Of a stretch of 36,062 bases of DNA, positions 6,105 through 31,779 are shown in pieces. Position numbers and translations under genes: made by a program. Under the pieces are notes generated by a model. It was given only the letters and a program-made list of their open reading frames with translations, did not search any database and was not told where the DNA came from. How positions within the stretch are numbered: position 1 is the first letter of the stretch; each line of letters opens with the position of its first letter. Source of the stretch: a virus; IMG/VR virus record IMGVR_UViG_3300023178_000137, positions 1-36,062 of that record, one strand, 5' to 3'.

Positions 6105-7312
6105 TAGCTTATTCCTCCACCACAAGCGGCTTGTTTTGCTTCTTGTAGTCTTGTAGAAAGTATTTGACAGGCGGCGCTATCATCAAATTTCATTTTTTGT
6201 ATAACATCGTTTCCTATTCCGCTCTGAGAACCAGCAGAAGTCCAACCATTAGATACATACGCACTTCCGTCAGCATAATCTCCTGCGCTTACATGGCCGG
6301 CTGCTCTAGTAGAGGTTCTATATGTTAGAACTGTGGAAGTAGTTGGATCATCATATTTGAATTTCCAAAAGGACCATGTAGAATAACTCACAACATCGCC
6401 ATTATATTCTAGCATAGTTCCATTAGTGATAGCATTATAATTGGCTGTTGTTACTGCAGCAGCATCATCCGCATATCTGTGTTTCTCTCCAGATATTCCA
6501 GTTATGGAATTACTCATTCCTGGAACTCTACCACCTACTCTTAAGTAATCATATTCCTGTCCTACGGTGCTAGCTCTATAATATGTTTGTGACATTGGGT
6601 TTGCTGCAACTGCAACAACATTAGGGTCATCCCATCGATATTTGTCTATATCAGTTTGATAGAGATATCCTCCACTGCCACCAATAAAATCAAATTTTTC
6701 CATTGCTACATTATGAATATCAGTATAATTAGATACTAAATTTCCTGTTGCAGAGCTTTCGATGCCGCTGGTAGTCGTAGCACCATATCCAACTTTCCAA
6801 TTGGTTCTATTAAATGATCCAGACCAATTTGCGGTTCCGTTTGTACGAAAAGCAGCAACATCATAATTTCTTGTAACTGAGGCGGTAGTAGTAAATGCAT
6901 TATCTTCAGCAGGAATAGTACCAACTTTATGAGCCAAATCATCGAATTTGACTTGATCTATATGATCAAGATAATTTGGGATTGGAGTTCCATCTTCATC
7001 AAAGCCCAAGGGTTCTCCTCTTCCTCCCATTACTATTATAGAAATATTTCTTGGATATAGCTGGTGGATATAAGGAAGATTGAGATATTTTAAGGCGCTT
7101 ATATAAACTAATTTATTTGTAGTTGGGCATTTTACTGCGTCTAATACTGCATTAACTGGTTTGCCTTGGGTAATGTCTTGTCCTGCAACTTGAACAGGTC
7201 CTCGATTCATATATGTCGTAAAGTCAGACGAGTTTGCGATTCTTGATAATTGTATTGTTGTTGGGTAAGTTTCTTTTGATTTTACACTAAAAAATCTAAA
7301 TGTCGTTGCCAT
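6104..7312 (-). CDS. Kelch-like beta-propeller fibre protein
   Basis: A protein of 402 residues, first of a coupled Kelch-like pair. Residues 1-90 form a distinct N-terminal domain (MATTFRFFSVKSKETYPTTI..., then LYPRNISIIVMGGRGEP). The rest carries propeller-type repeats marked by QVKFDD, KYRWDD, HRYADD, KFKYDD and KMKFDD, with strands such as YLRVGGRV between. It begins a transcription unit: a late-promoter core lies at 7337-7344 and a perfect hairpin at 7351-7374 separates it from the upstream gene. An AAAGAGAG Shine-Dalgarno precedes the ATG. The stop overlaps the next ATG. It is probably a surface-binding fibre or its partner; no enzyme motif is visible. Confidence 0.73.
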   Translation of the reverse strand: MATTFRFFSVKSKETYPTTIQLSRIANSSDFTTYMNRGPVQVAGQDITQGKPVNAVLDAVKCPTTNKLVYISALKYLNLPYIHQLYPRNISIIVMGGRGEPLGFDEDGTPIPNYLDHIDQVKFDDLAHKVGTIPAEDNAFTTTASVTRNYDVAAFRTNGTANWSGSFNRTNWKVGYGATTTSGIESSATGNLVSNYTDIHNVAMEKFDFIGGSGGYLYQTDIDKYRWDDPNVVAVAANPMSQTYYRASTVGQEYDYLRVGGRVPGMSNSITGISGEKHRYADDAAAVTTANYNAITNGTMLEYNGDVVSYSTWSFWKFKYDDPTTSTVLTYRTSTRAAGHVSAGDYADGSAYVSNGWTSAGSQSGIGNDVIQKMKFDDSAACQILSTRLQEAKQAACGGGIS

Positions 7313-7336: not shown

Positions 7337-7344
7337 TATTTATG
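7337..7344 (-). promoter_or_regulatory. late promoter CATAAATA
   Basis: CATAAATA on the minus strand, 25 bases upstream of the ATG at 7312 and just downstream of the 7351-7374 hairpin, so a terminator-then-promoter boundary. Confidence 0.6.
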
Positions 7345-7350
7345 CAGAAA

Positions 7351-7374
7351 TGTCAAGCTCCAAAGAGCTTGACA
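7351..7374 (-). terminator. terminator-like hairpin
   Basis: A perfect 10-bp inverted repeat, TGTCAAGCTC / GAGCTTGACA, with a 4-base loop, 11 bases after the stop of the 7386 gene. On the minus strand it is followed by TTTCTG, a short T-run, so it is a weak or partial rho-independent terminator. Confidence 0.65.
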
Positions 7375-7385
7375 TATATGGATTA

Positions 7386-9077
7386 TTATAGAGGCTGGAT
7401 CCAGTTTCCTACGCCTGTGCCGGAATCTACGACCCAAATATAAAGAATACCTGAGTTGCGATCCAACCACATCATGCCCTCATCTGGAGAGGCAGGTGCT
7501 GCGGTATCAACTGTACAAGCTCCGCCAACTTTTACGCCATCAACATACAAGTCGTTTCCTTGTACTGTCAATGGAATATTTACTGCTGGAGTTGCAGGAT
7601 CAACCATGTGAATGGTTTGAGCATAAATGTTAGTCCAGCGAAGAGCTGCTCCGCCCAAGTCCCATGTCAAATCAGCGTTTGGGTTGATAGTATCGGCAGC
7701 TACACCAGCAAGTGAGCTTGCGCCAATTACACCAAGTGTTCCGCCAACTGTTGCGCCGTTTGTCACAGCCAATGTATCACCAGCAGTTACCGCACCAGTT
7801 ACAGCCAAAGTTGAACTCAATGTTGCTGCGCCTGTTACATTCAATGCATCACTAAGTGTAGCCACTCCAGTTACGTCCAAAGTTGATGACATTGTAGCTG
7901 CGCCAGTTACGCCCAAAGTTGAGCTTAGTGTAGTTGCTCCAGATACAGTGGTAGCTCCGTTGATACTAACGTTGCCACTATTTGAACTTAAAACCAAATC
8001 ACCAGTAATTGTGTCAATAGTTTGATCATCTGTTACAGCAATTTGGATATTACCAAAGTTAGTGCTTGGAACTGTCAAGTTGTTAACTGTAATGGAGTCA
8101 AAATAACCATGGTTCCACATCGTCAATTCATGGCCCAAGTCGTATGTTTTGTCTGCTGATGGCATAACATGACCTGAAAAGTCAGCGCCACCAAATGCTA
8201 CGTTGCCCAGTGTTCCTGAGAAAACTTCGCCTGTGTTAGTTGCGTCTGGCATAAAGGTAAATTTCTGAACTGAGCGATCAAAGCCAAAGAAACCAACCTT
8301 TGCTGCTGTGCCGTCGTGCCATTGGTACTCAATACCGCGATCCAATCCGTCGTTTGTAGTAGGAGCAGTGTCGCCACCCAGTGTCATAACGGGATCATCA
8401 AGTGTTACAGTAGTTGAATTTACTGTAGTTGTAGTTCCATTTACAGTCAAGTCACCTGTAATAGTTACATTACCAAGTGTGCTTGTTCCACCAGTTGTGG
8501 AGCCTGTAATCAAAATGTTACCAGCAATAGTTACATCACCGCCATCACCACTTGGGGAAGGATCAATAACAATAGCATTGGTTGCTGAACTAATAGTGTT
8601 GTTTGAGCCATCAATTGTCAAATCACCAAGAACTACTTTGCTACCATAAATGTTATTCCAAACATTAGAAGCAGTACCTAAATCGTATGTAGCAGTAGCC
8701 AATGGAGTAATAGTGTTTGAGGAAACAACGCCATTCAATGTAGTAGCGTCTGTAACAGCCAAAGAATTACCAAGTGCTGTAGCGCCAGTTACAGTGAATG
8801 TTCCACCAACAGAAGCGTCAGTTGTAAATGTTGAAATACCTGTAACATCTAATGTGCCAGTTACAGCCAAGTTGTCATCAACTTGTGTATTACCAGTTGC
8901 AGAGTCTAAGATCAAGTCTAAAGTCTTAGTGTCAATCTCGTTGTCTGCTGTAATTGAGAGTTGAACATCACCGAAGGATGGTTGAACATTCCATACAGTA
9001 CCGTCCCATTCCCAAGTAGTCGCGCCGTAGGTATATAACTGTCCTACAGTAGTTGCGCTCGGAAAAGCAAAAGCCAT
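7386..9077 (-). CDS. modular tail fibre protein
   Basis: A protein of 563 residues that holds most of the array's modules in order: the N-terminal MAFAFPSATTVGQLYTYGATTWEWDGTVWN unit in divergent form (1-30); DVQLSIT..NEIDT...DLILDSATGN; LAVTGTLDVTG-type repeats; a TYDLGTASNVWNNIYG unit; the NSTTVTLDDPVMTLGGD module with RGIEYQWHDGTAAKVGFFGF (~205-290); a second TYDLG unit; about eight ATLSSTLAVTGA-type 12-residue repeats (~375-460); and a C-terminal W-rich unit (EGMMWLDRNSGILYIW...NWIQPL). AAAGGAG precedes the ATG. The repeats point to a trimeric beta-structured fibre shaft. It is followed by a terminator-like hairpin. Confidence 0.8.
   Translation of the reverse strand: MAFAFPSATTVGQLYTYGATTWEWDGTVWNVQPSFGDVQLSITADNEIDTKTLDLILDSATGNTQVDDNLAVTGTLDVTGISTFTTDASVGGTFTVTGATALGNSLAVTDATTLNGVVSSNTITPLATATYDLGTASNVWNNIYGSKVVLGDLTIDGSNNTISSATNAIVIDPSPSGDGGDVTIAGNILITGSTTGGTSTLGNVTITGDLTVNGTTTTVNSTTVTLDDPVMTLGGDTAPTTNDGLDRGIEYQWHDGTAAKVGFFGFDRSVQKFTFMPDATNTGEVFSGTLGNVAFGGADFSGHVMPSADKTYDLGHELTMWNHGYFDSITVNNLTVPSTNFGNIQIAVTDDQTIDTITGDLVLSSNSGNVSINGATTVSGATTLSSTLGVTGAATMSSTLDVTGVATLSDALNVTGAATLSSTLAVTGAVTAGDTLAVTNGATVGGTLGVIGASSLAGVAADTINPNADLTWDLGGAALRWTNIYAQTIHMVDPATPAVNIPLTVQGNDLYVDGVKVGGACTVDTAAPASPDEGMMWLDRNSGILYIWVVDSGTGVGNWIQPL
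8214..8450 (-). repeat. fibre module repeat, copy 1 (TLGGD module)
   Basis: About 235 bases coding for NSTTVTLDDPVMTLGGD through FMPDATN. Near-identical stretches, such as CAATACCGCGATC and TCCGTCGTTTGTAGTAGGAG, recur at 19726-19957, and a more divergent copy lies at 22427-22656. A likely substrate for recombination between fibre genes. Confidence 0.7.
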
Positions 9078-14150: not shown

Positions 14151-15260
14151 TCAATAACCTTGGGCGCTCGCTAATCCATATTTTGATTCTGATAGTAAAT
14201 TTGTATGTATTGCGTGAGCACTATCATCAAATTTTACAGATTCAACTGTATCTGTTGTATCCCCTGAATGTAAATTTCCTCCTGCTATCAATAATCCATC
14301 AAAACCATTTGATTGTGCAGTAGCACTATGAACTGCTTGGGAATAGGTATTTACAAATACTGATGTAAAAACAGAATCATCAAATCTTGTTTTCTCAAAT
14401 AGTGGAGAATTAGTTGCACTATCACTATCACCAGTAAATATCATTTCAAATTCTGTTGATCCTCCAGATAATCTATTTCTAGGAACAGTTAAGGAATTAG
14501 ATAGTGTATAAGAGGGTACAACATCGTCATATCTAAATCTTTCTATGCTTGATAATTGCCCTGCAGAAGAGTTAACACCGCCAGCAAAACAAATTTGATT
14601 CCTATCTGATCCTGCAGCACAATAATGTCTACCTACAGAAAGTCCGTTAGTCATAACTACCATAGCAGAATCATCAAATTTAACTTTATCAATTGCTGAT
14701 ACATCTGTTACACCGCCACCAAATAGTGCTTCTCCAAAACTTGCAGCGCCTGCTAATCCTCTTTTATTTGTTGATAATCTATTGGTAAATTGAACTGCAG
14801 GTATGCTATCATCAAATTTTAGCTTTTGAATTAAATCAGCAGCACCACTTCCTCCCCCAAATACAGCCTGTCTTCCATCTGATGTGCCTGCTAGATAGTG
14901 TTTTCCATTATTCAAATCGTTTGTATGAACAATAGTTGGTATAATATCATCATACCTTAATCGCTCAACTGTGCTACGACGTCCAGTACCACCTCCGCCA
15001 AATCCGCCACCAAACACAATTTCTGTGTAGGATCTTTTTACAATAGCTGGGTGTCCTGAAAAAAATAAATCTTTTAAATAAACTTTCTTTGTCATATCCG
15101 AAGTCATGTATGCGTCAGCAATTACAACACGATCCTTTCCTGTAATTGAATCACCCGATGGAACTCCAACAACTAGTCCCAAGTCCATTGCATAATCGTC
15201 TTCGATTGCAAATTCATTCGTTGGGTTTTTTGTTTTTTCTAAATGCAACTTTACTGTCAT
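14151..15260 (-). CDS. Kelch-like beta-propeller fibre protein
   Basis: A protein of 369 residues. Residues 1-80 are an N-terminal domain (MTVKLHLEKTKNPTNEFAI..., then VYLKDLFFSGHPAIVKRS), likely the attachment part. From ~85 come six clear Kelch-like repeats with FGGG or AGG strands (EIVFGGGFGGGG, AVFGGGSG, ALFGGGVT, ICFAGGVN, LLIAGGNL) and DD elements (RLRYDD, KLKFDD, KVKFDD, RFRYDD, KTRFDD, SVKFDD). The C-terminal strand (LSESKYGLASAQGY) can complete the first blade, the usual propeller closure. The start overlaps the stop of the 15260-17530 gene (TAATG), and the stop is one base from the next ATG, so three genes are coupled. Confidence 0.8.
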   Translation of the reverse strand: MTVKLHLEKTKNPTNEFAIEDDYAMDLGLVVGVPSGDSITGKDRVVIADAYMTSDMTKKVYLKDLFFSGHPAIVKRSYTEIVFGGGFGGGGTGRRSTVERLRYDDIIPTIVHTNDLNNGKHYLAGTSDGRQAVFGGGSGAADLIQKLKFDDSIPAVQFTNRLSTNKRGLAGAASFGEALFGGGVTDVSAIDKVKFDDSAMVVMTNGLSVGRHYCAAGSDRNQICFAGGVNSSAGQLSSIERFRYDDVVPSYTLSNSLTVPRNRLSGGSTEFEMIFTGDSDSATNSPLFEKTRFDDSVFTSVFVNTYSQAVHSATAQSNGFDGLLIAGGNLHSGDTTDTVESVKFDDSAHAIHTNLLSESKYGLASAQGY

Positions 15261-17530
15261 TAGTTAAACCTATAAATAACCTGAGTAGCCGTTTCTTCTC
15301 TAGATATTCTTTGTGATGTTGCTAAATCATACATATCTTTTATAACAAATTCATTATTAGCAAAGTCCCATTGTAATATCTCTCCATTGATTGCTTCTGA
15401 AGATTCACTTGGTACTGTCAAACTAAATCCTGCTTGAAATTCATAAGAGCTAGTAGCAGCATTATAAGTTAGGATATCTCCATCGGTTGTAGTTCCAGAT
15501 ACATCATTTAAATCAGCAATACTAGCGGCAGCTATTCTAGCATCAGCTTGAGCATCTGTATATCCTGTTGCTGTGCCTGGTACCCATGCTGAAGTTCCAG
15601 AATCATATACTAGTGCTTGTCCATCACTTGGAGTTCCTATGGTTGTATCTGTTAAGTCTGCTAAAGTAGTTGATCCACCACCTCCGCTTGAAACAGTAGC
15701 TGGAATCCATTTATTAGAAGAACCATCCCATGTAAGAACATCGCCAGTATTCGGTGATCCTGCATCTACATTGTTAAGATCATCCAATACTTTCTTTTGT
15801 GGAACCCAAGTATATCCTGTTCCTGCACCATTTACAATCATCTGATTTCCAGCAGTAAGTGAACCTGGTGCATTTACATTACCAATATCTGTAAGAAGTG
15901 CTACGGTGGTACCACCACCACTAGATACAGTTGTAAATGAAAAAGTACCTGCGCCATCAGTTGTTAATACTTGTCCAGCAGCACCGTCTATAATAGATAA
16001 ATCAGTCAATACAGTAGGAATGACAGGAGGAGTATAGGTAAAGACACCTGTTGAATTGTCATATGCCAATGTTCCTGTACCAGATGCGCTATTTTGGGTT
16101 ACAGATAAATTAGTTAGTGCAATACCTCCGTTGCCTGGTATCCATTTTGAAGTACCAGAATCATATACTAGTGCTTGTCCGTCACTTGGTGATCCTGCAT
16201 CTATGTCATTAAGATCGACTAATAGTTTCTTTTGTGGAACCCAAACATAACCTGTTCCTGAAGAGTGTACTACTAGTTGATTTCCAGCATTAGTTGATCC
16301 TGCAATAGCTACATCGCCAATATCTGTAAGAGACGCTACGCTAGTCAAATAATTAGAGTCATTTGTAAAGGTGCTAACATTTGTAGGAATGCGAGCATCA
16401 ACTCTAGCATCTGTATAATAAAGATTTGTAGATCCTTCAGTTAGATTATCTGTTGTTTTGGTATTGAATCTAGAATCAAACCTTCCGTTAGTGTAATATA
16501 AATTAGAAGTATGTTCAGTTACATTTGAAGTATCTAATGTGACAACGCCTGTTTTTCCAGCAACGGATGTAACTAAATTAGTATCATCTAATAAAGCTGA
16601 CAAATCCATTGTAAAAGTAGTTCCATCGTCTCTAGTAAATGTAACAATGCCTGTGCCTGAGTCTAATGTTCCTGAGGCTATTGAGCGAGAATCTTCATCT
16701 AATAATCCTGACAAATCTATGTTAGTAGTATTTCCGTTTTCATCACTATATGATAAAGTAGTTGTGCCTGCAGTGTATGAAAGTGCTGTTGGTTCTTTTG
16801 ATCCTGGTATCCATTTATTAGTAGAGTTATCCCATTGTAAAAATTGTCCATCTGTTGGTGATCCTGCATTTACGTTATTAAGATCATCTAATACTTTCTT
16901 TTGTGGGACCCAAGTATATCCATCTCCTGTTCCATTTACTACCATCATATTTCCAGCGGTAGTTGATCCAGGAACATTTACATTGCCAATATCTGTAAGG
17001 ATTGCTGCGCTAATTCTTCCATCAGCTCTAGCATCTGTATAATAAAGATTTGATGAGCCTTCAGCTACATCGTCAGTTGATTTAGTAGCGAGTCTTGTAT
17101 CAAAATCTGTATTGGTCCTTGCTGTAGTATAATACAGATTTGTTGAACCTTCGGATACATTGTCAGTTGTTTTAGTGGTAAGCCTTGCGTCAAAATCTGT
17201 GTTAGCTCTAGCTGTTGTATAATAAAGATTTGTTGTTCCTTCTGCTAGATCATCTGTTGATCCTATAGCAGAGCCTGAAGTGATAGGAACCCATTTGCTA
17301 GTTGCGCCATCAAAACTTAAAAGTTGATTATTAGTAGGCGCAGTAGAAAAATCTACATCAGCCAAACCTTCGATGGTTCCGGATGCTACTGTCTTGATAT
17401 TATTTAATGTATCTTTTACAAAAATTTTGCCATCGGCTAAGTTTAAGGCTACTTCGCCTGTTTGTAACGAAGATGGAGCAGGGACTGCTCCAGGAGTTGA
17501 AGAAGATTTTAGTTTTATTACGGTTGCCAT
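15260..17530 (-). CDS. large repetitive tail fibre protein
   Basis: A protein of 756 residues. The N-terminus (MATVIKLKSSSTPGAVPAPS, then LQTGEVALNLADGKIFVKD) is typical of fibre attachment domains of marine T4-like phages. The body is built of three repeat types: about five TT.NL.EGSTNLYYT.AR.D..F units of ~30 residues; about six DIGNVN.PGST.AGN..V..GTGYTWVPQKKVL units with a following LNNVDAGSP.DGQ.L.WD..TNKWIPG; and ENGNTTNIDLSGLLD pairs. It ends SREETATQVIYRFN, a tail shared with the 3229 gene. Its Shine-Dalgarno (GAAGGA) lies in the stem of the hairpin at 17537-17599, whose loop is a late promoter. It leads the operon that includes a Kelch pair and the S74 fibre. Confidence 0.82.
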   Translation of the reverse strand: MATVIKLKSSSTPGAVPAPSSLQTGEVALNLADGKIFVKDTLNNIKTVASGTIEGLADVDFSTAPTNNQLLSFDGATSKWVPITSGSAIGSTDDLAEGTTNLYYTTARANTDFDARLTTKTTDNVSEGSTNLYYTTARTNTDFDTRLATKSTDDVAEGSSNLYYTDARADGRISAAILTDIGNVNVPGSTTAGNMMVVNGTGDGYTWVPQKKVLDDLNNVNAGSPTDGQFLQWDNSTNKWIPGSKEPTALSYTAGTTTLSYSDENGNTTNIDLSGLLDEDSRSIASGTLDSGTGIVTFTRDDGTTFTMDLSALLDDTNLVTSVAGKTGVVTLDTSNVTEHTSNLYYTNGRFDSRFNTKTTDNLTEGSTNLYYTDARVDARIPTNVSTFTNDSNYLTSVASLTDIGDVAIAGSTNAGNQLVVHSSGTGYVWVPQKKLLVDLNDIDAGSPSDGQALVYDSGTSKWIPGNGGIALTNLSVTQNSASGTGTLAYDNSTGVFTYTPPVIPTVLTDLSIIDGAAGQVLTTDGAGTFSFTTVSSGGGTTVALLTDIGNVNAPGSLTAGNQMIVNGAGTGYTWVPQKKVLDDLNNVDAGSPNTGDVLTWDGSSNKWIPATVSSGGGGSTTLADLTDTTIGTPSDGQALVYDSGTSAWVPGTATGYTDAQADARIAAASIADLNDVSGTTTDGDILTYNAATSSYEFQAGFSLTVPSESSEAINGEILQWDFANNEFVIKDMYDLATSQRISREETATQVIYRFN

Positions 17531-17536
17531 TATGGT

Positions 17537-17599
17537 ATATCCTTCGTCATAATTCTATAAAAGTATTTATCTTTATATAGAAATCGTATCGAAGGATAT
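17537..17599 (-). promoter_or_regulatory. hairpin sequestering the RBS of the 15260-17530 gene
   Basis: The outer arms 17537-17546 and 17590-17599 are exact 10-base reverse complements (ATATCCTTCG / CGAAGGATAT). The inner arms 17553-17563 and 17571-17582 pair over 11 bases with one bulge. The 7-base loop, 17564-17570, is exactly the ATAAATA promoter core. In mRNA read from upstream, the downstream outer arm contains the Shine-Dalgarno GAAGGA and would be paired. mRNA starting near 17558 lacks the upstream arms and leaves it free. The paired arms are seen; the silencing role is inferred from T4 late genes such as e and soc. Confidence 0.75.
17564..17570 (-). promoter_or_regulatory. late promoter core ATAAATA in hairpin loop
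   Basis: AGATAAATAC on the minus strand, 34 bases upstream of the ATG at 17530. It occupies the loop of the 17537-17599 hairpin. Initiation about 6 bases downstream would start within the inner stem. Confidence 0.65.
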
Positions 17600-17601
17600 T
17601 A

Positions 17602-18405
17602 TTAGAAACTAGCCGCCTCCCAAACTATCCCATTCCCAGATAAATCAAATTCTGTGACTGATACTGGGCCATCTATTTCTAAAAAGTAACCGTTAGTGCC
17701 AAATCCACCCGTGTATGGTATTGCGCCAATATTTCCATTTGAGTCTGTGCTTATAAAGCTACTTGGATTTGGGAAATCGCCTTGATCGCCATCAATCATA
17801 TAGCAGCGCCAAAAATTCATTCCTCCACTGTATGGTGTCATTGAGCCAGCATTATTTCCTATATAAGCTCCAATAGTATGCGTAATTTGTTCGCCTGTTG
17901 ATGAAGTATTTGCATTAAATGCTTGATAAGTGTGCTGATTTGAGAATAAGGAAGTCCAAGCGGTTACAGGTCCAATTATTGCTACACCGTCTCGATAGAT
18001 AGTGACTGTTTGATCTGTTATATCAGCTGAATTTCTATAATGATTAACTTGTATATGATACCATTGCCCTGCTACCATACCTGACGCAGTAGATAGGTCT
18101 ATATTATATCCTGAATCATTATTGTGTTGCCAATAATGTAGAGAGCCATCGCTTCTTATCATAAGAGCAGATGATCGAGCAGCACTGCCTTGATATGCTG
18201 CTCCTGCAATTGCTCTATTTTCTGTAAAGTCAGGTATATTGACCCACATTGATAAAACAAAAGAGCTTCCTAAATTATTAGCAAATGAACCGCCTGTTGA
18301 TCTTGGAAATTTTAAAAACTGATTAGTCCCAAGAGAACTACCTGTTGGCATAGTTATTGCAACAGGTGGTGTTTTATTTGTTTGGCTTATCAGCGGAAAG
18401 CTCAT
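17602..18405 (-). CDS. LamG/ConA-like lectin fibre-tip protein
   Basis: A protein of 267 residues resembling the concanavalin A-like jelly-roll fold of LamG or Laminin_G_3 domains. From about residue 28 come FLKFPRSTGGSFANN, SFVLSMWVNIPDF, a SDGSLHYWQHN strand, the typical GQWYHIQVNHYRNS strand, then QTVTIYRDGVAI and IGAYIGNNAGSMTPYSGGMN. These domains bind glycans or act as beta-sandwich decoration; no glycosidase residues are evident. The start overlaps the stop of the 18402 gene (ATGA), so the lectin is coupled to a short fibre and is likely its tip in a separate chain. It is the last gene of its operon; the stop is 2 bases from the regulatory hairpin. Confidence 0.77.
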   Translation of the reverse strand: MSFPLISQTNKTPPVAITMPTGSSLGTNQFLKFPRSTGGSFANNLGSSFVLSMWVNIPDFTENRAIAGAAYQGSAARSSALMIRSDGSLHYWQHNNDSGYNIDLSTASGMVAGQWYHIQVNHYRNSADITDQTVTIYRDGVAIIGPVTAWTSLFSNQHTYQAFNANTSSTGEQITHTIGAYIGNNAGSMTPYSGGMNFWRCYMIDGDQGDFPNPSSFISTDSNGNIGAIPYTGGFGTNGYFLEIDGPVSVTEFDLSGNGIVWEAASF

Positions 18406-29493: not shown

Positions 29494-29992
29494 AGAGCTT
29501 ATCTTCTTCTACTTGTGCTTCCATTTTTACAGGCTCAGACTCTTCAGATGATCTTGTAACCTTTTCTTTGATTTGCTCAAACATTGTTTTCTCTTCTTTT
29601 TTAGCCGCTGGTGCTGGCTTTGGTTCAGCTTTTGCGTTTGGTGCTGTAAATCCTGGATTAGTATCAAAGCTCCAAGGTTGTCGAGTTCCGTGGAGTTTTG
29701 GGTCAGAGGAAACAATAGTCATTACTTTATTTTTGAGTGTGCCAACTTGTACTAGTGATCCGTCTTTTAGTTTGACATTAATAATCATCTGTCCTTCTGT
29801 TAGTGAGCTCATTTGTCGAACTTCATTTTGGACTAGATGGCATACTGCTCGATTTCCGTTAGCGTCTTGACATCTAAATTTACGATTCCCAATCTTTCGA
29901 ATGATCCATCCTTGAACGCTCTCTTGTCCATTGTGGAATTGACATTTGATTGGGTTGTCTGCTAGCTTTGATACGCCTAGTGGGCCTGACAT
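29492..29992 (-). CDS. hypothetical protein, possible head or tail accessory
   Basis: A protein of 166 residues in two parts. Residues ~1-95 are a compact beta-rich domain (LADNPIKCQFHNGQESVQGW, RKIGNRKFRCQDANGNRAVC, GQMIINVKLKDGSLVQVGTL) with three cysteines, suggesting an SH3-like or decoration fold. Residues ~105-166 are a low-complexity tail rich in A, P, K and E (APNAKAEPKPAPAAKKEEK), ending in charged helix. I do not recognise the family. AGGAG lies 8 bases before the ATG, and a 12-bp hairpin and a CTAAATA core lie upstream. It is a monocistronic unit between the iscU group and the fibres, which suggests high or separate expression. Confidence 0.72.
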   Translation of the reverse strand: MSGPLGVSKLADNPIKCQFHNGQESVQGWIIRKIGNRKFRCQDANGNRAVCHLVQNEVRQMSSLTEGQMIINVKLKDGSLVQVGTLKNKVMTIVSSDPKLHGTRQPWSFDTNPGFTAPNAKAEPKPAPAAKKEEKTMFEQIKEKVTRSSEESEPVKMEAQVEEDKL

Positions 29993-30012
29993 TTTTTTCT
30001 CCTAATATAGAT

Positions 30013-30043
30013 ATTATGACTCATCACCATAATGAGTCATAAT
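30013..30043 (-). promoter_or_regulatory. 12-bp perfect stem-loop in the 5' leader of 29492-29992
   Basis: The arms 30013-30024 and 30032-30043 (ATTATGACTCAT / ATGAGTCATAAT) are exact reverse complements around a 7-base loop. The stem lies between the CTAAATA core at 30053-30059 and the Shine-Dalgarno, and starts about 10 bases after the core. It has no T-run. It may protect the mRNA 5' end, or be a protein-binding dyad. Confidence 0.65.
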
Positions 30044-30052
30044 GTGTTACTG

Positions 30053-30059
30053 TATTTAG
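30053..30059 (-). promoter_or_regulatory. possible late promoter variant CTAAATA
   Basis: GCTAAATAC on the minus strand, 61 bases upstream of the ATG at 29992. One base off the ATAAATA core. The gene otherwise has no visible promoter. Confidence 0.35.
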
Positions 30060-30076
30060 CCGTATATTAGAAATGA

Positions 30077-30214
30077 TTATTTTGTTTTTTTGTGAGGTTG
30101 AGGTTTGAGTTGTTGTTTTGCCCAGTTAGGCAAGTCTTTGTAGCGGTACTGAGTCATACCAATTGTGTCATTTTCGTCTAGGTTCCATTCGGGTAGAGGA
30201 TCAGGTTGTTCCAT
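30077..30214 (-). CDS. small 45-residue ORF downstream of iscU
   Basis: An ORF of 45 codons, MEQPDPLPEWNLDEND... then MTQYRYKDLPNWAKQQLKPQ and a lysine-rich end (HKKTK). It starts inside the last 14 bases of iscU in another frame and fills most of the gap to the next gene. The composition (P, W, N, K, Q) looks like a real small protein and codon use matches its neighbours. There is no strong Shine-Dalgarno, only a purine-rich stretch, so translation would depend on reinitiation after iscU. Function unknown; it might bind IscU or regulate it. Confidence 0.55.
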   Translation of the reverse strand: MEQPDPLPEWNLDENDTIGMTQYRYKDLPNWAKQQLKPQPHKKTK

Positions 30215-30596
30215 TTTCAGTGCATTGCTTTCTTCTATAGTCGTCTATTGCTTGTTTGATGGCGTCTTCTGCCAGTACAGAGCAATGAATTTTTACTGGA
30301 GGTAGAGAGAGTTCGTCAACTATGTGTGTGTTTTTGATTTCCAACGCCTCGTCCACTGTCTTACCTTTAATCCATTCTGTAGCTAGGCTTGAGGATGCAA
30401 TCGCAGATCCACATCCAAAGGTTTTGAACTTTGCGTCAGTTATTTTTCCGTCTTCAACTTGTATTTGTAGCTTCATCACATCTCCGCACTCTGGTGCTCC
30501 TACTAGGCCTGTGCCTACATTAGGTGCGGTTTTGTCTAGAGATCCGACGTTGCGTGGGTTGTCGTAGTGATCAATTACGCCTGTTGAGTATGCCAT
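30201..30596 (-). CDS. iscU: IscU Fe-S cluster assembly scaffold
   Basis: A protein of 131 residues, full length for the IscU family, which holds nascent [2Fe-2S] clusters made by the cysteine desulfurase IscS and passes them to apoproteins with HscA/HscB help. All key residues are present: C37 and D39 in GAPECGDVMKLQI, C62 in FGCGSAIASSS, H104 and C105 in VKIHCSVLAEDA, and the HscA-binding LPPVK motif (98-102). The N-terminus (MAYSTGVIDHYDNPRNVGSL) is typical of the bacterial family. It should therefore work with the host's Isc machinery. The ATG overlaps the stop of the lipoprotein gene (TAATG). A phage copy beside the capsid genes is unusual and was probably taken from a bacterial host. 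Confidence 0.93.
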   Translation of the reverse strand: MAYSTGVIDHYDNPRNVGSLDKTAPNVGTGLVGAPECGDVMKLQIQVEDGKITDAKFKTFGCGSAIASSSLATEWIKGKTVDEALEIKNTHIVDELSLPPVKIHCSVLAEDAIKQAIDDYRRKQCTENGTT

Positions 30597-31739: not shown

Positions 31740-31766
31740 AAAAAAAGGAGCCAATAATTGACTCCT
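31740..31766 (-). terminator. rho-independent terminator after gp23
   Basis: A stem of 7 pairs, AGGAGTC / GGCTCCT (one G-U), with a 7-base loop, followed on the minus strand by a run of six to seven Ts. It lies 26 bases after the gp23 stop. A late core sits immediately upstream, so mRNA initiated there would begin with this hairpin. Confidence 0.8.
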
Positions 31767-31771
31767 AATTT

Positions 31772-31779
31772 TATTTATC
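31772..31779 (-). promoter_or_regulatory. late promoter GATAAATA
   Basis: GATAAATA on the minus strand between the gp23 stop and the terminator. The predicted start, about 6 bases after the core, falls on the first base of the terminator stem (31766). It would drive the lipoprotein-iscU unit. Confidence 0.6.

Follow-up and report, generated by a model that had tools for sequence, protein, structure and literature searches.

The locus considered here raises the question of what a late promoter does when it lies in the loop of a hairpin that covers the ribosome-binding site (RBS) of the next gene. The window, that is, the whole stretch of 36,062 nucleotides of virus record IMGVR_UViG_3300023178_000137 that was analyzed, encodes a T4-type major head protein, a head maturation protease, and a tail sheath, and is therefore a fragment of a T4-like myovirus; its source is a marine T4-like phage. 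The hairpin separates a lectin-like gene from a fibre gene, the N-terminus of which is common to the long tail fibre distal subunits of Acinetobacter and other T4-like phages. The genes upstream of the fibre gene are structural and presumably late, and a NifU-like Fe-S assembly gene (phrog_8429, E 8.6e-41; window 30201-30596, minus strand) also lies among the structural genes. A scan for sigma-70-like promoters gave 71 against 62 in shuffled sequences, which is the chance level. The features of the locus are as follows:

15260-17530, minus strand: 756-residue fibre gene, N-terminus like that of long tail fibre distal subunits of T4-like phages
17602-18405, minus strand: lectin-like gene (Laminin_G_3) upstream of the fibre gene, stop codon at 17604-17602
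17537-17599, minus strand: whole RBS-masking hairpin
17590-17599, minus strand: 5' outer arm ATATCCTTCG, present in readthrough RNA only, 2 nt after the lectin stop codon
17571-17582, minus strand: 5' inner arm TTCTATATAAAG, with one bulged base (from the fold)
17564-17571, minus strand: T4-type late promoter octamer GATAAATA (from positional motif enrichment), its bases 17564-17570 forming the loop
17558, minus strand: transcription start (+1) predicted by the spacing of T4 late promoters
17553-17563, minus strand: 3' inner arm CTTTTATAGAA (from the fold)
17537-17546, minus strand: 3' outer arm CGAAGGATAT, including the Shine-Dalgarno sequence
17540-17545, minus strand: Shine-Dalgarno sequence GAAGGA of the fibre gene (from the sequence)

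The geometry is compact. The two 10-nt outer arms are 100% complementary and form 10 perfect pairs, the inner stem adds 11 pairs with one bulged U, and both are nested and centred on the late promoter: the first base of the octamer (17571) is paired, and the remaining seven make up a 7-base loop that is exactly ATAAATA (AUAAAUA in RNA). The Shine-Dalgarno sequence, read from 17545 to 17540 and situated 9 nt before the ATG at 17530, is held in the helix of the predicted fold. The first-pass annotation of this DNA had given the outer-arm positions, the 11 inner pairs with one bulge, and the loop, and had placed GAAGGA in the downstream outer arm; all of this was correct. The minus-strand segment 17528-17610 folds at -19.2 kcal/mol (z -4.05), and 5 of 5000 dinucleotide shuffles were as stable. 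A reading of the hairpin as an intrinsic terminator was rejected, as no T tract follows the stem and ATATACCATAATG is found there instead; the hairpin was also absent from a terminator scan, and no Rfam family matches it.

The late promoter is recognized by its placement rather than its frequency. ATAAATA occurs 16 times in the window against 15.9 expected by chance, so there is no excess; but of the 11 copies on the minus strand, 8 are found 15-64 nt before a start on that strand, a range that takes in only 4% of positions (P ~1e-9). The late promoter of marine T4-like phages has been given as NATAAATA (PMC2984593). Judged by motif placement, the promoter in the loop is real in its context, and it would be active in infected cells. 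As the T4 late TATA box precedes the start by roughly one helical turn (PMC2988020), transcription is expected to begin near 17558.

Folding with and without the bases upstream of 17558, as the first-pass annotation had proposed, separates the two RNAs clearly: readthrough RNA needs 12.0 kcal/mol to expose the Shine-Dalgarno sequence, and RNA that starts near 17558 needs 0.14 kcal/mol. The exact start matters little, since transcripts beginning anywhere from 17554 to 17561 would lack the 5' arm, and opening costs only 0.14-0.18 kcal/mol in each of them, according to sequence and folding. When the upstream bases alone were shuffled, none of 300 sequences was as strong as the native one.

Gene e of T4, used as a positive control, has the same layout, with promoter TATAAATA over loop AUAAAUAC and AGGAGG in the 3' arm, and its Shine-Dalgarno sequence requires 12.9 kcal/mol to open. 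In both phages the Shine-Dalgarno sequence is in the 3' arm, the late promoter is in the loop, and RNA initiated at the promoter lacks the 5' arm, at comparable cost (12.9 versus 12.0 kcal/mol). Computation shows the arms, promoter, Shine-Dalgarno sequence, and energies of the fibre-gene hairpin, and its equivalence to T4 gene e. In a blind scan of Shine-Dalgarno opening cost at 105 late promoters, taken from T4 and five marine phage records, T4 e (67017) ranked first, a T4 gene of 258 residues at 45637 second, and the fibre-gene site third. The second of these is, by its sequence, probably I-TevII.

The logic of such hairpins has been described for T4 e, soc, 49, and I-TevI (PMC3014915, PMC2988022). 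Long transcripts of T4 e are reported to form the hairpin and to yield approximately 100-fold less lysozyme, whereas those initiated at the internal late promoters are without the 5' part and are translated well (PMC3014915). Hairpins with late or middle promoters at T4 I-TevI, I-TevII, I-TevIII, and segB and at Aeh1 mobE likewise sequester the RBS in readthrough RNA, with the promoter so placed that its own RNA cannot fold; these are, however, homing endonuclease genes in early or middle units, and there are no fibre genes among them (PMC2988022). The known cases concern late genes on transcripts shared with early and middle genes (PMC2988022). In f1 VII/IX and MS2 coat/lysis, a hairpin also covers the downstream RBS and has its 5' part where upstream ribosomes terminate, but a promoter inside the hairpin has not been described there (PMC12548453).

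The present hairpin differs from that of T4 e in being larger, with nested inner and outer stems, and above all in its setting. In T4 e, masking falls on an early transcript and on a lysis gene; in the present case a tail-fibre gene is masked, and its upstream neighbour is lectin-like and part of a structural array. The hairpin is one of T4 type that masks an RBS, but it stands in new surroundings, with a structural and presumably late gene on either side. The distinction between long and short mRNAs and the comparison with T4 that the first-pass annotation drew are well supported by the energies and by the geometry of T4 e, but the exact fit of promoter and loop, which it had found striking, is not without precedent, as T4 e also has its promoter in the loop. 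The purpose does not carry over as readily: T4 silences an early or middle polycistron, whereas the genes upstream of the fibre gene seem to be structural and late, which leaves no evident early RNA for such silencing to act on.

By analogy, and also by energy, a switch mechanism for the fibre gene is probable. Readthrough RNA from the lectin operon would fold over 17537-17599 and hide the fibre-gene Shine-Dalgarno sequence, and RNA begun at the loop promoter, near 17558, would lack both upstream arms and be open to ribosomes. The fibre operon would in this way be expressed mainly from its own late promoter and not by readthrough, which might separate its dose and timing from those of the lectin genes. 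That 17537-17599 is a T4-type cis-acting translational switch of this kind, repressing readthrough RNA in cells so that the fibre operon is expressed mainly from its own promoter, is the reading we consider likely.

How widely this arrangement occurs was examined in other sequences. The locus is present on three other metagenome contigs, identical in this stretch, and these uniform copies show no variation in the arms. A search with the lectin gene returned these copies only. Of 80 loci with a homologous fibre N-terminus, three were the phage's own copies, and the promoter and hairpin were found in none of the other 77; on the sequences compared, the hairpin does not travel with the fibre gene family. 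An exact-arm pattern scan of the viral collection gave no small promoter-centred hairpin over a start beyond the phage's own three contigs.

Within the same phage, by comparison, a second site stands out. Its longest contig (76.6 kb) has 18 late promoters in front of ORFs, and at two of them 0 of 300 shuffles matched the native value: the fibre-gene site and a GCTAAATA promoter located in the 3'-terminal part of a UvsX-like gene. The latter sits in a 10-pair stem, TCCTCTTGAG/CTCAAGAGGA, that covers the Shine-Dalgarno sequence of a 70-residue gene without assigned function (L361:900-1003; G001:7565, minus strand). In relative L365, the 70-residue product of which is 91% identical, the stem is kept and the loop is changed. 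A weaker candidate also lies in the window:

29996-30073, minus strand: GCTAAATA promoter (30053-30060) between arms TTTCTAATATA and TATATTAGGAGAAA, preceding the gene that starts at 29992

Shine-Dalgarno opening at this candidate costs 5.9 versus 0.7 kcal/mol (shuffle P 0.02-0.05), and a 12-pair terminator-like hairpin (30013-30043) is nested inside it.

Related forms were found in relatives, whose loci were reached via the major head protein (76-85% identity). At one of their junctions, a small virion protein ending in ..HNFDK is followed by a fibre-like gene starting with M..GRISG; this junction was not found in the phage's own contigs. Across 64 distinct junction sequences, a recurrent feature is a late promoter within or abutting a hairpin that involves the Shine-Dalgarno sequence or start codon, and it takes three forms. 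In form A, the promoter overlaps the stop codon and lies between CTTTGACA and TGTCAAAG(GAG); in form B, TTCCTATA/TATAGGAG overlaps the promoter; and in form C, CTGTAT/ATACAG or CAGTATC/GATACTG holds the Shine-Dalgarno sequence in its loop and starts just past the promoter, so that little of the 5' arm would remain in RNA initiated at the promoter.

The junction analysis is exploratory. A first masking statistic, with one representative per leader cluster, was not significant (Shine-Dalgarno pairing 0.44 versus 0.43), partly because one hairpin type holds the Shine-Dalgarno sequence in the loop, and the folding z-scores, arm retention, and swap test were adopted after that null result. Folding z averages -1.96 in the readthrough junction segment and -0.77 at 28 other late promoters in these loci; for RNA initiated at the junction promoter the mean is +0.14. 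Form A retains at least 7 of its 8 arm pairs in 25 of 26 junctions and all eight in 17, against roughly 2 of 26 that reach the observed pairing when the leader outside the Shine-Dalgarno sequence is shuffled, although these are counts of related, non-independent sequences and not P values; the pairing is kept across ten different loop tails. A native-versus-swapped test over 17 clusters gave a modest P of 0.017, and roughly a third of the 64 junctions have no structure by this measure. A universal rule of Shine-Dalgarno masking at late promoters was rejected: over 66 late promoters of relatives, masking was 0.533 against 0.520 in shuffles (P 0.76), with no excess. Some junctions use the device, but it is not general. 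It is possible, and we propose it only tentatively, that marine T4-like phages mask RBSs by promoter-in-hairpin elements inside structural operons, setting fibre-gene dose, and that these have been built repeatedly with different arms.

The main rival to a T4-type switch is translational coupling, in which the ribosome terminating on the lectin gene covers the 5' outer arm and opens the Shine-Dalgarno sequence, with the internal promoter serving as an uncoupled extra supply. At the lectin-fibre boundary, the site of upstream termination does overlap the inhibitory structure. A terminating ribosome is taken to cover approximately 12 nt, counted from the start of the stop codon, as toeprints indicate; with the arm only 2 nt past the stop, 8 of its 10 bases would be occupied, and the cost of opening would fall from 12.0 to 0.63 kcal/mol. 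This qualifies the claim of the first-pass annotation that readthrough mRNA would fold and hide the RBS: the silence of that mRNA is uncertain, since a ribosome ending the lectin gene would leave the Shine-Dalgarno sequence open. The 5' arm at the relatives' junction also lies in the last codons or just past the stop, and coupling through RNA unfolding by upstream translation is established (PMC12548453). Against this, T4 e is similarly laid out, with its 5' arm 8 nt after the nudE stop and hence less overlap with a terminating ribosome than here, and its long transcripts still give about 100-fold less lysozyme (PMC3014915); the hairpin may also refold after termination and stay mostly closed. 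We regard coupling as unlikely to be the principal explanation, but it may coexist with the T4-type switch and act jointly with it.

Two further explanations carry less weight. The hairpin could have arisen by chance, from a 10-base repeat that happens to lie in an AT-rich promoter region, and have no part in regulation; it is true that the window holds ten inverted repeats of at least 10 nt, that late promoters as a class show no masking excess, and that relatives with varied arms are absent. The dinucleotide shuffles, the shuffles of the upstream bases alone, the nesting of inner and outer arms around the promoter, energies like those of T4 e, and the independent recurrences in the same phage and in relatives all speak against chance, which we consider improbable. 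Still less probable, to the point of being very doubtful, is that the inverted repeat works in DNA, or as an RNA processing or stabilizing element, and not as an RBS mask. Several late promoters do lie beside or inside terminator-like hairpins (window 7337-7388 and 31746-31766; L096:3733), but the missing T tract means that the present hairpin is no intrinsic terminator, Rfam offers no match, and the 3' arm coincides with the Shine-Dalgarno sequence. With these weighed, the T4-type switch remains our preferred reading.

Reviews record such hairpins, with a late promoter inside, in T4-type phages for genes of lysis, head decoration, recombination, and homing endonucleases, and describe them as keeping late products out of early RNA (PMC3014915, PMC2988022). 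What is new in the present case is that the masked gene encodes a fibre and belongs to a structural operon, and that the arrangement recurs at another fibre-type junction; a tail-fibre case in a structural array, together with related forms at that junction in many environmental phages, suggests that the device may also set adhesin dose within late expression. The cost of opening the Shine-Dalgarno sequence with versus without the bases upstream of a late promoter is, moreover, a cheap sequence signature, which recovers T4 e blind and is applicable to environmental phage genomes.

Other arrangements of late promoters were observed in passing. Directly after the major head protein gene (window 31746-31778, minus strand), late promoter GATAAATA is followed immediately by an intrinsic terminator (AGGAGTCAATTATTGGCTCCTTTTTTT; terminator-like hairpin 31746-31766), upstream of the next start. 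In L096, a close relative (head protein 83% identity), the terminator after the major head protein holds a late promoter within its own stem, AAAAGCTCTATAAATATTTTTATAGAGCTTTTTTTTT, followed by GGAG and ATG (L096:3721-3775). At window 7337-7388 (minus strand), a CATAAATA late promoter comes directly after a 24-nt inverted repeat (GTCAAGCTC..GAGCTTGAC) and precedes by 25 nt the gene that starts at 7312. Finally, in L106, L108, L110, L143, L158, and L173, apparently divergent late promoters overlap (TATAAATA..TATTTATA), so that each transcript would start inside the leader of the other.
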